Source: Bacteroides coprosuis DSM 18011
GTDB lineage: Bacteria; Bacteroidota; Bacteroidia; Bacteroidales; Bacteroidaceae
Length of the DNA stretch: 64,000 nucleotides
Assembly (NCBI GenBank): GCA_000212915.1
Contig: CM001167.1
Coordinates: forward strand, 922,780-986,779
Direction of reading: 5' to 3'
The translations under genes were made by a program, and so were the position numbers. The notes below the pieces were generated by a model. The model had not been told where the DNA came from, ran no database searches, and was given only the letters and a program-made list of their open reading frames with translations. Positions 57,524-62,013 of the stretch are shown here, piece after piece (position 1 is the stretch's first letter; every line of letters starts with the position of its first letter).

Positions 57524-57871
57524 ATGCCAAGATCAGTAAATCATGTTGCTTCTAGAGCAAGAAGAAAGAGAGTCCTTAAGCAAACCAAAGGTTACTTTGG
57601 AGCTAGAAAAAATGTGTGGACAGTAGCAAAAAATGCATGGGAAAAAGGTTTAACTTATGCATACCGTGACCGTAAGAGCAAAAAGAGAAACTTCCGTGCT
57701 CTTTGGATTCAACGTATCAACGCTGCTGCACGTTTAGAAGGAATGACTTACTCAAGATTAATGGGTGGTCTAAAGAAAGCTGGTATTGAAATTAACCGTA
57801 AAGTCCTTGCTGACTTAGCAGTTAATCATCCAGAAGCTTTCAAAGCAATCGTAGCGAAGGCTAAAGCTTAA
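57524..57871 (+). CDS. rplT: Ribosomal protein bL20
   Basis: This 115-residue basic protein starts [20 protein letters not shown] and includes [20 protein letters not shown] in the part that binds 23S rRNA. In other bacteria L20 also represses its own operon through an RNA fold upstream of rpmI. It ends the infC-rpmI-rplT operon, followed by a terminator. Confidence 0.97.
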
Positions 57872-57895
57872 ATTTTAAGCAATAGATAAAATAAT

Positions 57896-57930
57896 AAAGG
57901 CGTTCTAATCAATTAGTTCGCCTTTGTTTT
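57896..57930 (+). terminator. Terminator of the infC-rpmI-rplT operon
   Basis: AAAGGCG (57896-57902) pairs with CGCCTTT (57919-57925), with CTAAT/ATTAG pairing in the loop, then a T-run. Confidence 0.85.
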
Positions 57931-57974
57931 TATCAAAATATTCTAAGGGGATACGAACAAAATGGATTTATCCC

Positions 57975-58005
57975 TTGTTTATATAGTAGAAAGCAGTTAT
58001 ATTTG
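57975..58005 (+). promoter_or_regulatory. Promoter of the structured RNA
   Basis: TTG at 57975-57977, a 20-bp spacer and TATATTTG at 57998-58005 fit the Bacteroidetes -33/-7 pattern very well. Transcription should start near 58012. Confidence 0.7.
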
Positions 58006-58011
58006 CTGTAT

Positions 58012-58251
58012 AACAAAGATAGTTATTGGCCGCATTGATCGACTGGGTAACTCATCAAGTAATTAAGAAAACCGAGACACGCTTCCGTATTTAATGGCGG
58101 GCCACAACCTTCGGGTATTCGTATTACGGATCAGTGGATTACAAAGAGTTCGGGGCACTCAAATCATGTCAATCGGAGTTTCATCGCATCAATCAGTGCG
58201 GCTTCCCATAATAGAAAAAGGAGATACAAATGTATCTCCTTTCTGTTTTTT
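58012..58251 (+). ncRNA. ssrS: Rod-shaped structured RNA, probable 6S RNA (Bacteroidales type)
   Basis: A GC-richer island with no sustained ORF lies between a good promoter and a strong terminator. GCCGCATTGAT (58029-58039) pairs with ATCAGTGCGGC (58192-58202) as an 11-bp closing stem with one G-U. AACTC (58049-58053) pairs with GAGTT (58176-58180). TCCGTA (58084-58089) pairs with TACGGA (58125-58130). ACC-TTCG-GGT (58107-58116) is a UUCG tetraloop hairpin near the tip. The long rod of about 180 nt with internal loops is the shape of 6S RNA, which binds the housekeeping RNA polymerase. The identity is inferred from shape; another Bacteroidales ncRNA is possible. Confidence 0.6.
58217..58251 (+). 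terminator. Terminator of the structured RNA
   Basis: AAAGGAGATACA (58217-58228) pairs with TGTATCTCCTTT (58231-58242) around a 2-nt centre, then CTGTTTTTT. Confidence 0.92.
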
Positions 58252-58356
58252 ATGCTATTAGCTGTTTTTTAAGGGTCAGTCCGTAAAGTTGGGGATCACC
58301 TGCAAAAGCAGGGGGGGAACATCAAAAAGATTATCTTTGTAGAAAAAACAAAAGCT

Positions 58357-58743
58357 ATGCAAGATTCTCAAATGTTACTCGAAGTAGTTCGCTTAATTTT
58401 ACCAGAAGAGTTCCTTACTTATTTCAAGATTACCAAAGTGACTAAAGTAAAAGATGTTATTACCATTTTTATGGATGAGTTTGACTCTTTACCAGCTGAT
58501 CGTAAAGGTCATAAAGTAGAATCAAAAGGCTTTCTAGACCCCATAACTATCCAAGACTTTCCCGTTCGTTTTAAGAAGGTTACTCTCAAAGTACGTCGTC
58601 GTAAGTGGTATGATTCTACAACGAAAGAATACTTGACTAACAAATATGACTTACTAGCAAAAGGAACGCATTACTCGAAGGAGTTTGCGGCTTTTTTAAA
58701 AGAATTACCTAGAGACATACCCCGTATCGGCCCGCTCTCTTGA
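58357..58743 (+). CDS. ISAon1-family transposase N-terminal protein (element B)
   Basis: This 128-residue protein corresponds to orfA of ISAon1-type elements. It has ITIQDFPVRFKKVTLKVRRR, which aligns with the basic region of the element A protein, and FAAFLKELPRDIP near the end. The run C-TTTTTT-AAAA-GA at 58691-58703 is where the catalytic frame (+1) opens, as in element A. Confidence 0.88.
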   Translation: MQDSQMLLEVVRLILPEEFLTYFKITKVTKVKDVITIFMDEFDSLPADRKGHKVESKGFLDPITIQDFPVRFKKVTLKVRRRKWYDSTTKEYLTNKYDLLAKGTHYSKEFAAFLKELPRDIPRIGPLS

Positions 58744-58795
58744 GCCTATTTGCCATATTAATGGAGATTCTTTAGAGCGACATTATAAAGAGCAC

Positions 58796-59692
58796 TTGAG
58801 TTCATATAAGAATTGGCAAATGAAAGATCATGCTATAGAGTGGCTTTTGTTTCCAGAGAACATTTCTCCACGGCTCTGTATCGATGAAACCTCTATGACC
58901 AATGGAGACTTATATACTATATTAAGTAATCCCAATAATAAAGGGAAACAGGGCACCATAGTCGCTATTATTGCTGGTGTTCAATCAGATAAAATTATCC
59001 AGGTATTAATGAAGATGCCTGAGAGTTTAAGACAGCAAGTCAAGGAGATCACATTAGATATGGCTAATAGTATGAATAAAATAGCTCGAGTGTGTTTTCC
59101 TAAAGCCTGTCGAGTAATTGACCGATTCCATCTGCAGAAATTAGCCAATGAAGCGGTGCAAGAGGTACGAGTAAAACACAGATGGGAAGCCATAGAAGAA
59201 GAAAATCAAGCGATTAAACAAGCTAAATGGGAAGGTAAGACCTATAAACCTCTAACTTTTAGTAATGGAGACACAAAGAAACAATTACTAGCAAGAGGAC
59301 GATATCTTCTTTTTAAATCTGCAGACAAATGGTCTGATAAGCAAAAAGAAAGAGCTAAGATTCTTTTCGCACAATACCCTTCATTAAAAGAAGCCTATAG
59401 CCTATCACAAGGGCTTCGCTCTATTTTTAATCGTAAAACAATTAAAGATGCAGCAAGACTTTCTCTTGCCAAATGGTATAATAGAGTAGAGCAAACTGCT
59501 TTTCAATCCTTTAAGAGTATTGCAGGAACCATCTATTCACATTATGATGAAATATTAAACTTCTTCAACAATCGATCAACAAATGCTTTTGCAGAGAGTT
59601 TTAACGCTAAACTAAAAGCCTTTAGGACTCAACTAAGAGGGGTTACAGATATTAGTTTCTTTCTATTTAGGGTTACTAAATTATTTGCTTAA
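58796..59692 (+). CDS. ISAon1-family transposase, catalytic protein (element B)
   Basis: This is a 298-residue DDE transposase of the ISL3-like type. Catalytic residues lie in RLCIDETSMTNGDLYTIL (Asp), KEITLDMANSM (Asp) and NAFAESFNAKLKAF (Glu). VCFPKACRVIDRFHLQKL is intact. The frame is coding upstream of the TTG used here, back to about 58703 (YPVSARSLEPICHINGD), and lacks an ATG. The native product is therefore probably a fusion with orfA made by frameshifting or transcript slippage at 58691-58703. Confidence 0.88.
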   Translation: MSSYKNWQMKDHAIEWLLFPENISPRLCIDETSMTNGDLYTILSNPNNKGKQGTIVAIIAGVQSDKIIQVLMKMPESLRQQVKEITLDMANSMNKIARVCFPKACRVIDRFHLQKLANEAVQEVRVKHRWEAIEEENQAIKQAKWEGKTYKPLTFSNGDTKKQLLARGRYLLFKSADKWSDKQKERAKILFAQYPSLKEAYSLSQGLRSIFNRKTIKDAARLSLAKWYNRVEQTAFQSFKSIAGTIYSHYDEILNFFNNRSTNAFAESFNAKLKAFRTQLRGVTDISFFLFRVTKLFA

Positions 59693-59786
59693 TAAGTTAT
59701 CCCCCCTAGTTTTGCAGGTGATCCAAAGTTGGGGATTTAACAATTAGTCCATTTCTACTTCCCTTATAAAATATTACTTTTGATCC

Positions 59787-60146
59787 ATGAAAAAGAAAGC
59801 AATCGATTATAAGGATATATTGTCCATGTTCCTTCCTAAAGGCATGCTTGACTATTTTGATTTTACCGACTATTCAGACATGGGTGATTATTATATATTC
59901 TCTCTTGAAGAGAAAAATAGTATACCAGACGAGCATTCAAGTCTTCCACTAGTTTCCAAAGGTTTTTATCCAACAATAACAGTTACAGATTTTCCTGTTC
60001 GCGACCGCACTGTATACTTGAAAGTTAGACGTCGCAGATGGGAGGATAAGCAAACTGGTAAGACATACAGCAGAGACTGGAAATTGGTTGCAGACGGGAC
60101 TAGGATAACAGCCGAGTTTGGTTCTTTTTTAAAAGAGTTACATTGA
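59787..60146 (+). CDS. ISAon1-family transposase N-terminal protein (element A copy 2)
   Basis: This 119-residue protein is identical to that of copy 1 at 25709-26068. The slippery run C-TTTTTT-AAAA-GA is at 60124-60136. Element B lies upstream, between this gene and the left end of element A, so the native promoter region may be changed. Confidence 0.88.
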   Translation: MKKKAIDYKDILSMFLPKGMLDYFDFTDYSDMGDYYIFSLEEKNSIPDEHSSLPLVSKGFYPTITVTDFPVRDRTVYLKVRRRRWEDKQTGKTYSRDWKLVADGTRITAEFGSFLKELH

Positions 60147-61124
60147 CAATCATGAAGTTAGCATAAAAGTAGTAGCTGACTTCTGCCATCTGAAGTCGAA
60201 GACACTTAACGATTACTACAAGGAACATCTAAGTGGTTATCGTTCTTGGAATCAGCTCTCTCATGCTGATCAGTACATGTATTTTAAAGACAATTTAGGT
60301 GAGAACATATCTATTGACGAAACAGCCCTAAGCAACGGAGAGTTATACACCATTGTAACGGGTAAGGCTGGTCATGGTAAGCATGGTACGATTATAGCTA
60401 TGATAAAGGGAACAAAGGCTGACGATGTATGTAGATATCTGATGAAGTTACCAGAAGGAAAACGTAGGATGGTCAAGAACGTGACTCTTGACATGGCCGG
60501 AAGTATGAGGCAGATAGCCAAGAGATGCTTTCCTTACGCTACACAGATCATAGACCGTTTCATGTACAAAAGTTGATGCAGGATGCATTGCAGGAGCTGC
60601 GCGTGCAATACCGCTGGCAAGCTATTGAGCAGGAGAACTCAAACATAAAAAGAGCAAGGAAAGAAAAGAGAAAATATATACCTCCATGTTTTGATAACGG
60701 GGATACCATAAGACAGCTTCTTGTACGCAGCAGATATCTACTATTCAAAAGTCCTGATAAATGGACAGACTCCCAAAGAATAAGGGCTGAGATACTCTTT
60801 AAGCAGTTTGACGACATAAAACAATTCTATTATTTGACTTTACAACTTGGACAGATATACTCACATAACTACGATAAAAATGTTGCCAGGGTAAAGCTTG
60901 CACTGTGGTTCAATAAGGTAGAGCAGTGGAATTACCCTCAGTTCAATACGGTAATAGAAACCTTTAAAAATCACAATGATAGGATATTAAATTTCTTTGA
61001 AAACAGACTTACCAATGCTTCAGCTGAATCTTTCAATGCCAAACTTAAATCTTTCAGAGCTACATTCAGAGGAGTAGATGATGTAAAATTCTATCTGTAT
61101 AGAGTGATGATGCTATACGCCTAA
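60135..61124 (+). pseudogene. ISAon1-type transposase, catalytic part, frameshifted (element A copy 2)
   Basis: It has the same two-frame structure as copy 1. The first segment (ISIDETALSNGELYTIV to IIDRFMYKS) ends at 60576, and the rest runs in another frame to 61124 with NASAESFNAKLKSFRA. A single missing base at about 60561 (CGTTTCATG for expected CGTTTCCATG) explains the break. The identical lesion in both copies means the element spread or was copied after it was damaged, or the shift is tolerated. Confidence 0.85.
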
Positions 61125-61159
61125 TTGTTAAATCCCCAAGAATACGGACTGACCCTTTT

Positions 61160-61924
61160 TTAATCAAAAACTTCTTGATCTTCGTTTATCACCATTCCCT
61201 TATACTCCTCGACTAGTCCCGATTCCACAATAGAATAAGCTTCGTTTAGAGCGCTTTTAATATCTTTAGGCGTTTGACCTTGATGGGGGATGGGTTTGTG
61301 TATGGTGAGTGACATTCTATGCCATTTCGGGAGTAAGCCTGTCCTAGGTAGTACATTAAAAGACCCATTGATGGTGAGAGGTACAATATCTAACTTTAAA
61401 TCGCTAGCAAGTTGAAAAGCTCCTCTTTTAAAGTATCCCATGTGCCCAGTAAATGTACGTGCTCCTTCAGGGAACACAACAAGAGACACTCCATGTACTA
61501 GTATTTCTCCAGCTTCAGCGATGGTTCTTTTTATCTTTTTAGGTCCTGAACGATCTACAAAGATGTGTCCAGCACTTTCACAAGCTTTACCTACTAATGG
61601 AATATGGCGAAGACTCTTTTTCATCATCCATCTAAAGTTTCTATGAATGTAGCCATAGATAAGAAATATATCGAATGCCCCTTGATGATTGGCTACAAAG
61701 ACGTATGATCTATTTTTATCTAGATTTTCTCTTCCTGTCACTTTTACAGGAAGAAGTAATATGCTACATATAAATTTAGCCCAATACTTCCCAGGAATAT
61801 AGCCCCAATACTTTGCGTTGCCTACTACTGAGCCAAAAGTAGTAGTTAAAGCTGTAATAATTGTAGCTAAGAGTAATAATGGTATCGCAATTAAAATCAC
61901 ATAGCAGATATATATTATACGCAT
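61160..61924 (-). CDS. plsC: 1-acyl-sn-glycerol-3-phosphate acyltransferase
   Basis: This 254-residue membrane enzyme makes phosphatidic acid. It has an N-terminal membrane helix (YICYVILIAIPLLLLATII), the HX4D catalytic motif in VANHQGAFDIF, and the substrate motif VVFPEGARTFTG. The start is the ATG at 61924; the upstream extension is not conserved. Its stop codon lies within the 8-bp target duplication of element A, which therefore abuts the gene and has removed the native downstream region by 2.9 kb. Confidence 0.92.
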   Translation of the reverse strand: MRIIYICYVILIAIPLLLLATIITALTTTFGSVVGNAKYWGYIPGKYWAKFICSILLLPVKVTGRENLDKNRSYVFVANHQGAFDIFLIYGYIHRNFRWMMKKSLRHIPLVGKACESAGHIFVDRSGPKKIKRTIAEAGEILVHGVSLVVFPEGARTFTGHMGYFKRGAFQLASDLKLDIVPLTINGSFNVLPRTGLLPKWHRMSLTIHKPIPHQGQTPKDIKSALNEAYSIVESGLVEEYKGMVINEDQEVFD

Positions 61925-62013
61925 ATTATATAGGTTTGTTGTTATAACAAATGTAAATAAAAAAATATTGTTTTGTACCAATTAATATGTAACTTTAAAG
62001 AAACAATGCTCCT

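Follow-up and report, generated by a model that had tools for sequence, protein, structure and literature searches.

6S RNA is a small RNA presumed to tie up RNA polymerase as growth slows, and the classical 6S RNA is built of a closing stem, a central bubble and a terminal arm. The closest described systems in Bacteroidota are two motifs published in the same paper in 2010, which assigns no function to the motif Bacteroidales-1 in its list and has 6S-Flavo among the RNAs that are given the function of validated classes (PMC2864571). In Bacteroides thetaiotaomicron 6S RNA and two classes of product RNAs (pRNAs) were detected by dRNA-seq, and the same study gives the Bacteroidetes promoter consensus as TAnnTTTG at -7 and TTTG at -33 (PMC7366714); in Flavobacterium psychrophilum 6S RNA is among the known RNAs detected (PMC9723704). 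The 6S RNA of B. thetaiotaomicron (PMC7366714) is presumably the RNA that Rfam holds as RF01693, since Bacteroides ihuae alone of 14 control genomes matches RF01693, and it does not match RF00013, the classical 6S model.

The window analysed here is a stretch of 64,000 nt from Bacteroides coprosuis DSM 18011 (contig CM001167.1, positions 922,780 to 986,779), and it contains a forward-strand match to RF01693, described in Rfam as "Bacteroidales-1, 6S-Bacteroidales RNA suggested", with 142.9 bits and an E-value of 5.3e-24 (Table 1). The match is full-length (model positions 1–179), its score is over twice the curated cut-off of 60 bits, and it is the one strong match in the B. coprosuis genome. 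Our own covariance model R1, which was made from 112 Bacteroidales sequences only, scores 160.4 bits at 58024–58214, the window being one of these 112 sequences, and its next best place in the genome has an E-value of 3.77. An earlier note, made from the letters of the sequence, had read the segment as a probable 6S RNA gene and proposed a covariance search with the 6S and Bacteroidales-1 models; the latter matches, but RF00013 gives no match in the window at E ≤ 1 in a search of 451 nt, and RF01685 (6S-Flavo) has no direct match to the window at E ≤ 1 either. With a probability of roughly 0.93 we regard the segment as the one gene in this genome that encodes the Bacteroidales 6S RNA, which would sequester the σABfr holoenzyme until this is freed by pRNA synthesis. 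The earlier reading is thus borne out by the Rfam score, by compensatory changes in the closing stem and the terminal arm, and by homology to 6S-Flavo; the identity as 6S RNA follows from the architecture and this homology, together with the 6S RNA and product RNAs published for B. thetaiotaomicron (PMC7366714). The gene is an ordinary, well preserved member of an already catalogued RNA family.

Table 1. Features of the 6S RNA locus and of the adjoining insertion elements, in window coordinates.
Feature	Position	Strand	Basis or details
Terminator-like hairpin 3' of rplT, between rplT and the 6S gene	57885–57934	+	predicted fold
Promoter, Bacteroidetes σABfr type (-33/-7)	57975–58005	+	TTG 57975–57977, N20, TATATTTG 57998–58005
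Inferred primary transcript, ~240 nt	58010–58251	+	start from -7 box, end from T tract
6S RNA gene (Rfam RF01693, Bacteroidales-1)	58028–58209	+	covariance match
Closing stem P1, 5' strand	58028–58039	+	pairs with 58192–58203
Helix P2, 5' strand GUAACUC	58047–58053	+	pairs with 58176–58182, one U-U mismatch
Central bubble, 5' strand	58054–58080	+	unpaired in named structure
Terminal arm with forked tip	58081–58156	+	Rfam model, covariation, constrained fold
UUCG-capped tip hairpin	58107–58116	+	constrained fold
Second tip hairpin	58117–58131	+	constrained fold
Central bubble, 3' strand ACUCAAAUC...UCG	58157–58175	+	highly conserved (most rows chosen by this motif)
Helix P2, 3' strand GAGUUUC	58176–58182	+	pairs with 58047–58053
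Closing stem P1, 3' strand	58192–58203	+	pairs with 58028–58039
Intrinsic terminator of the 6S gene	58217–58251	+	11-bp stem 58217–58242, then U-rich tail CTGTTTTTT
Outer element	58273–61155		target duplications TTTTTTAA 58265–58272 and 61156–61163
Inner element	58293–59724		target duplications AAAGTTGG; inserted in left end of outer element

The genes infC, rpmI and rplT (Pfam PF05198/PF00707, PF01632 and PF00453 respectively) are located upstream, with rplT ending at 57871, and the long hairpin that follows rplT has a folding energy of -20.1 kcal/mol and carries GUUUUU within its 3' arm. The 6S segment is richer in GC than its surroundings, as had been noted, with 0.45 in 58020–58199 against 0.29 in 57840–58019 and 0.31 in 58320–58499. 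It has a promoter and a terminator of its own as judged by sequence motifs only, and both had been claimed in the earlier note as good and strong respectively. The promoter is of the Bacteroidetes type, and a scan for E. coli-type promoters lists none at this site. A TAnnTTTG box precedes the stem by at most about 60 nt in 115 of 155 distinct homologues, against 124 of 3100 (4%) letter-shuffled upstream segments, and 114 of the 155 show TTG-N17-23-TAnnTTTG upstream of the 6S RNA. By simple counts, a U tract directly follows the closing stem in 59 of the 155 homologues, and in 57 of the other 96 the T tract belongs to a hairpin of its own, as in the window. The promoter boxes are kept in the same-genus sequences L012 and L013, and a terminator hairpin occupies the corresponding place, its letters differing in part; L012 lies wholly within L116, a Bacteroides propionicifaciens record. 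The claim that no reading frame fits the segment must be modified in so far as a small ORF of 55 aa exists at 58094–58261, but its frame is broken by insertions or deletions of 1 and 2 nt relative to two same-genus sequences and the ORF was rejected.

Downstream are two elements that carry ISL3-type transposases (PF01610) and are nested one in the other, the outer one adjoining the 6S terminator. Together with the target duplications they occupy 58265–61163, and the transposase matches of the outer element are split over two ORFs. From the end of the T tract there are 13 nt to the target duplication and 21 nt to the element itself, where the earlier note has one element inserted about 15 bp past the terminator; there are two, one within the other. 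The inner element has 12 full-length copies in the 2.99-Mb genome, including that of the window, which are 92–100% identical and suggest a recent spread. The right target duplication of the outer element holds the stop codon of a minus-strand acyltransferase ORF (61160–61981), so that the insertion took place at the end of this gene and left its reading frame complete. In L012 the acyltransferase gene (74% identical, 224 residues) is found close after the 6S terminator with no insertion between. The 6S gene is untouched by the insertion.

Homologues for the structural comparison were gathered with the RF01693 model (the best 30 of the 42 places in relatives, and 27 further of the 106 order-wide places) and by searching named genome contigs for a core motif (at least 118 places). 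The motif was borne by 159 sequences, of which 13 had flanks that were too short and 8 were identical to others; after their removal 17 were added with a relaxed motif, giving the 155 distinct homologues with full flanks. Alignment A1 contains 112 of these, all below 90% identity. The exact core motif is present in 138 of the 155, and conservation inside it is therefore partly a product of selection, but the closing stem and the terminal arm are outside the motif.

The structure that we name has 33 pairs, made up of the closing stem P1, the inner helix P2 and the terminal arm, and 93.8% of its cells are paired in the 112 sequences. Changes on both sides occur in 24 of the 33 pairs, against a shuffle mean of 16.0 with 0 of 500 shuffles reaching 24, and when the structure is slid by 1–3 columns only 39–50% of the cells are paired and 13–17 pairs show both-side changes. 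P1, claimed in the earlier note as an 11-bp stem, has 12 pairs including two G-U, and all ten counted pairs have changed on both sides in relatives; at one of them 62 sequences have G-C and 40 have A-U. The compensatory changes that the note had proposed to look for are thus present, and the 6S architecture of closing stem, central bubble and terminal arm is evolutionarily supported. RNAalifold on the 112 sequences gives 32 pairs, 22 of them with at least one compensatory change, and chooses P1, the terminal arm and two local hairpins of 3 pairs each in the bubble. P2 (GAAACUC/GAGUUUC) is absent from this choice. It is paired in 97.4% of the cells and nearly invariant, and its 3' half is within the collecting motif; for these reasons P2 is unproven on the Bacteroidales set, and its main support comes from RNAalifold on 29 loci chosen by RF01685.

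The 5' strand of the bubble is in part paired locally by RNAalifold on the Bacteroidales set (3 pairs). A small extra helix across the bubble, CGAGACA/UGUC..UCG, is weakly supported; 94.3% of its cells pair against a shuffle mean of 93.1%, the columns hardly vary, and it has 3 pairs with both-side changes, a number reached by 4 of 500 shuffles. The internal helices described earlier are represented by the terminal arm, which covaries. The UUCG-capped tip also exists, but it is one of two side-by-side hairpins, which are likewise drawn in the Rfam model of RF01693; the long rod shape that had suggested a 6S RNA is therefore inexact as a single rod, the tip being forked, while the 6S reading built on it is supported. 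The minimum-energy fold of the single sequence (-46.0 kcal/mol) is 1.7 kcal/mol better than the consensus fold (-44.3 kcal/mol) and misses the terminal arm.

The homology of the RF01693 RNA to an accepted 6S family is found by way of 6S-Flavo. In the phylum search RF01693 weakly matches three genomes that do not belong to the order, and at these three places RF01685 scores 96.8 bits (L033), 49.3 bits (L031) and 49.8 bits (L032); in the latter two, from genomes G072 and G155, both models score at one place and both are below both cut-offs. R1 finds all 30 examined loci chosen by RF01685 (L034–L063) at the same place. They are the best 30 of 36 RF01685 places; 12 of the 30 are over the cut-off of RF01685 itself and one, L042, is the same place as L033. 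The E-values are from 3.1e-10 to 0.02, with 28 of the 30 at 2.5e-5 or lower (R1 E-values being rough), and the next best R1 place among 102,816 bases has an E-value of 0.55. A de novo consensus of 29 of these loci (L060 left out), from an alignment made without reference to the named Bacteroidales structure, has the same order of P1, P2, bubble and arm, and RNAalifold predicts both P1 and P2; at two outer pairs of P2 both partners have changed, in 3 sequences at one pair and in 4 at the other. Because a model built from Bacteroidales sequences alone recovers all 30 of the examined loci, RF01693 and RF01685 look like one family. RF00013 matches E. coli ssrS, to which R1 has no match; as RF00013 and the window are also unmatched, homology to classical 6S RNA is without sequence support and the link is one of plan only.

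With strict filters, one match to RF01693 per matching genome is found in 42 of 61 genomes of relatives (B. coprosuis included), 41 of them above the cut-off. Of the 393 genomes searched in the order 106 have a match, which exceeds the cut-off in 76. It was not found in the remaining 19 and 287 genomes respectively, an absence that proves little because of the stricter filters, as is also the case in the phylum, where RF01693 matches 6, RF01685 36 and R1 28 of 296 genomes under strict filters. R1 recovers 22 of the 36 RF01685-positive genomes. Three candidate 6S RNAs in genomes G136, G171 and G254 (L247, L243 and L246), all of one Bacteroidota family, are found by R1 with 34–42 bits, and neither Rfam model matches there under the filters used.

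A chance fold in intergenic DNA, with no gene at all, would be compatible with the modest energy z-score of -2.5 for 58012–58251 (2 of 200 shuffles are as good) taken alone. The segment is more than chance by that score and above all by the Rfam match, and the E-value of 5.3e-24 and the compensatory changes in 24 of 33 pairs refute this reading, whose probability is practically negligible. The position about 157 nt downstream of rplT might instead indicate a 3' UTR or cis-acting element of that gene, such as a site for ribosomal protein autoregulation, and rplT lies upstream, in the same orientation and no more than 1,500 nt away, in 57 of the 140 homologues that have at least 900 nt of upstream DNA. 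This makes the linkage common but not general, since rplT was not found there in the other 83. The RNA is also preceded by a promoter motif of its own, which most homologues retain, and rplT has its own terminator-like hairpin; the cis-element was rejected on the missing rplT and the promoter motif, and is very improbable.

Somewhat less remote, though still unlikely, is a conserved structured RNA that has the shape of 6S RNA and another function, for instance a small RNA that acts by base pairing with mRNAs or through a different protein partner. The canonical RF00013 has no match in the window, and Bacteroidales-1 was left unassigned by its discoverers in the 2010 list (PMC2864571), both of which would suit such an RNA. 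Against it stand the homology to 6S-Flavo, which the same paper credits with the function of a validated class (PMC2864571), and the 6S RNA with pRNAs known in B. thetaiotaomicron (PMC7366714). The genome, which is 99.95% complete, moreover has no match to RF00013 in a search where five of the 14 control genomes matched, nor to RF01685 in a search where 0 control genomes matched, a model that does match in the phylum search. The Bacteroidales 6S RNA remains the preferred reading.

By analogy with 6S RNA, the gene should be transcribed in B. coprosuis and its RNA should bind RNA polymerase. The RNA of about 180–240 nt would accumulate as growth slows and, by imitating the melted DNA of a housekeeping promoter, would occupy the σABfr RNA polymerase, so that the holoenzyme would be kept away from ordinary promoters. 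With nucleotides available again, the polymerase would copy one strand of the bubble into short product RNAs, which would open the structure and free the enzyme. The 5' strand of the bubble is the likely template region for the pRNA, with a putative start within 58054–58066.

ACUC is present at the stem edge of both bubble strands (5' AACUC at 58049–58053 and 3' ACUC at 58157–58160), and both copies can pair with the same GAGU(U) at 58176–58180. Once pRNA synthesis covered the 5' copy, GAGU would be released and fold into a hairpin with the 3' copy instead, which would change the bubble and eject the polymerase. Each of the two states is predicted once by RNAalifold, the 3' hairpin from the Bacteroidales alignment and the 5' pairing from the Flavo alignment. 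When the 5' strand is kept unpaired, the free fold has -30.5 kcal/mol and does not contain the 3' ACUC/GAGU hairpin, and forcing this hairpin with the 5' strand held gives -25.6 kcal/mol (the held stretches differ by 4 nt); for the whole RNA the forced hairpin has -43.1 kcal/mol against -44.3 kcal/mol for the P2 state, a cost of 1.2 kcal/mol. The calculated energies are thus against the 3' hairpin and the release switch is speculative. That RF01693 and RF01685 form one Bacteroidota-wide 6S family for σABfr promoters, with such an ACUC/GAGU switch built in, is a tentative proposal that we consider rather doubtful as a whole.

B. coprosuis thus carries a presumed polymerase-sequestering 6S RNA, catalogued as Bacteroidales-1. 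What is added here is small, namely a structure of the full-length RNA that includes a supported closing stem and links two separately catalogued families, and a further 6S search model for a phylum with housekeeping promoters unlike those of E. coli.

Compared with known systems, the window shares with RF01693 the conserved bubble strands, the arm and the two tip hairpins, whereas the closing stem and the GAAACUC/GAGUUUC helix, both named and counted here, are unpaired in the structure given by Rfam. With RF00013 and ssrS it has the same general plan in common, but there is no covariance match either way and the tip in the window is forked. In 6S-Flavo the closing stem, the AAACUC/GAGUUU helix, the bubble and the terminal arm follow one another as they do in the window. 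The Flavo closing stem, in contrast, runs straight into a U tract and may double as terminator, whereas the window has a separate terminator and divides the two jobs between two hairpins.
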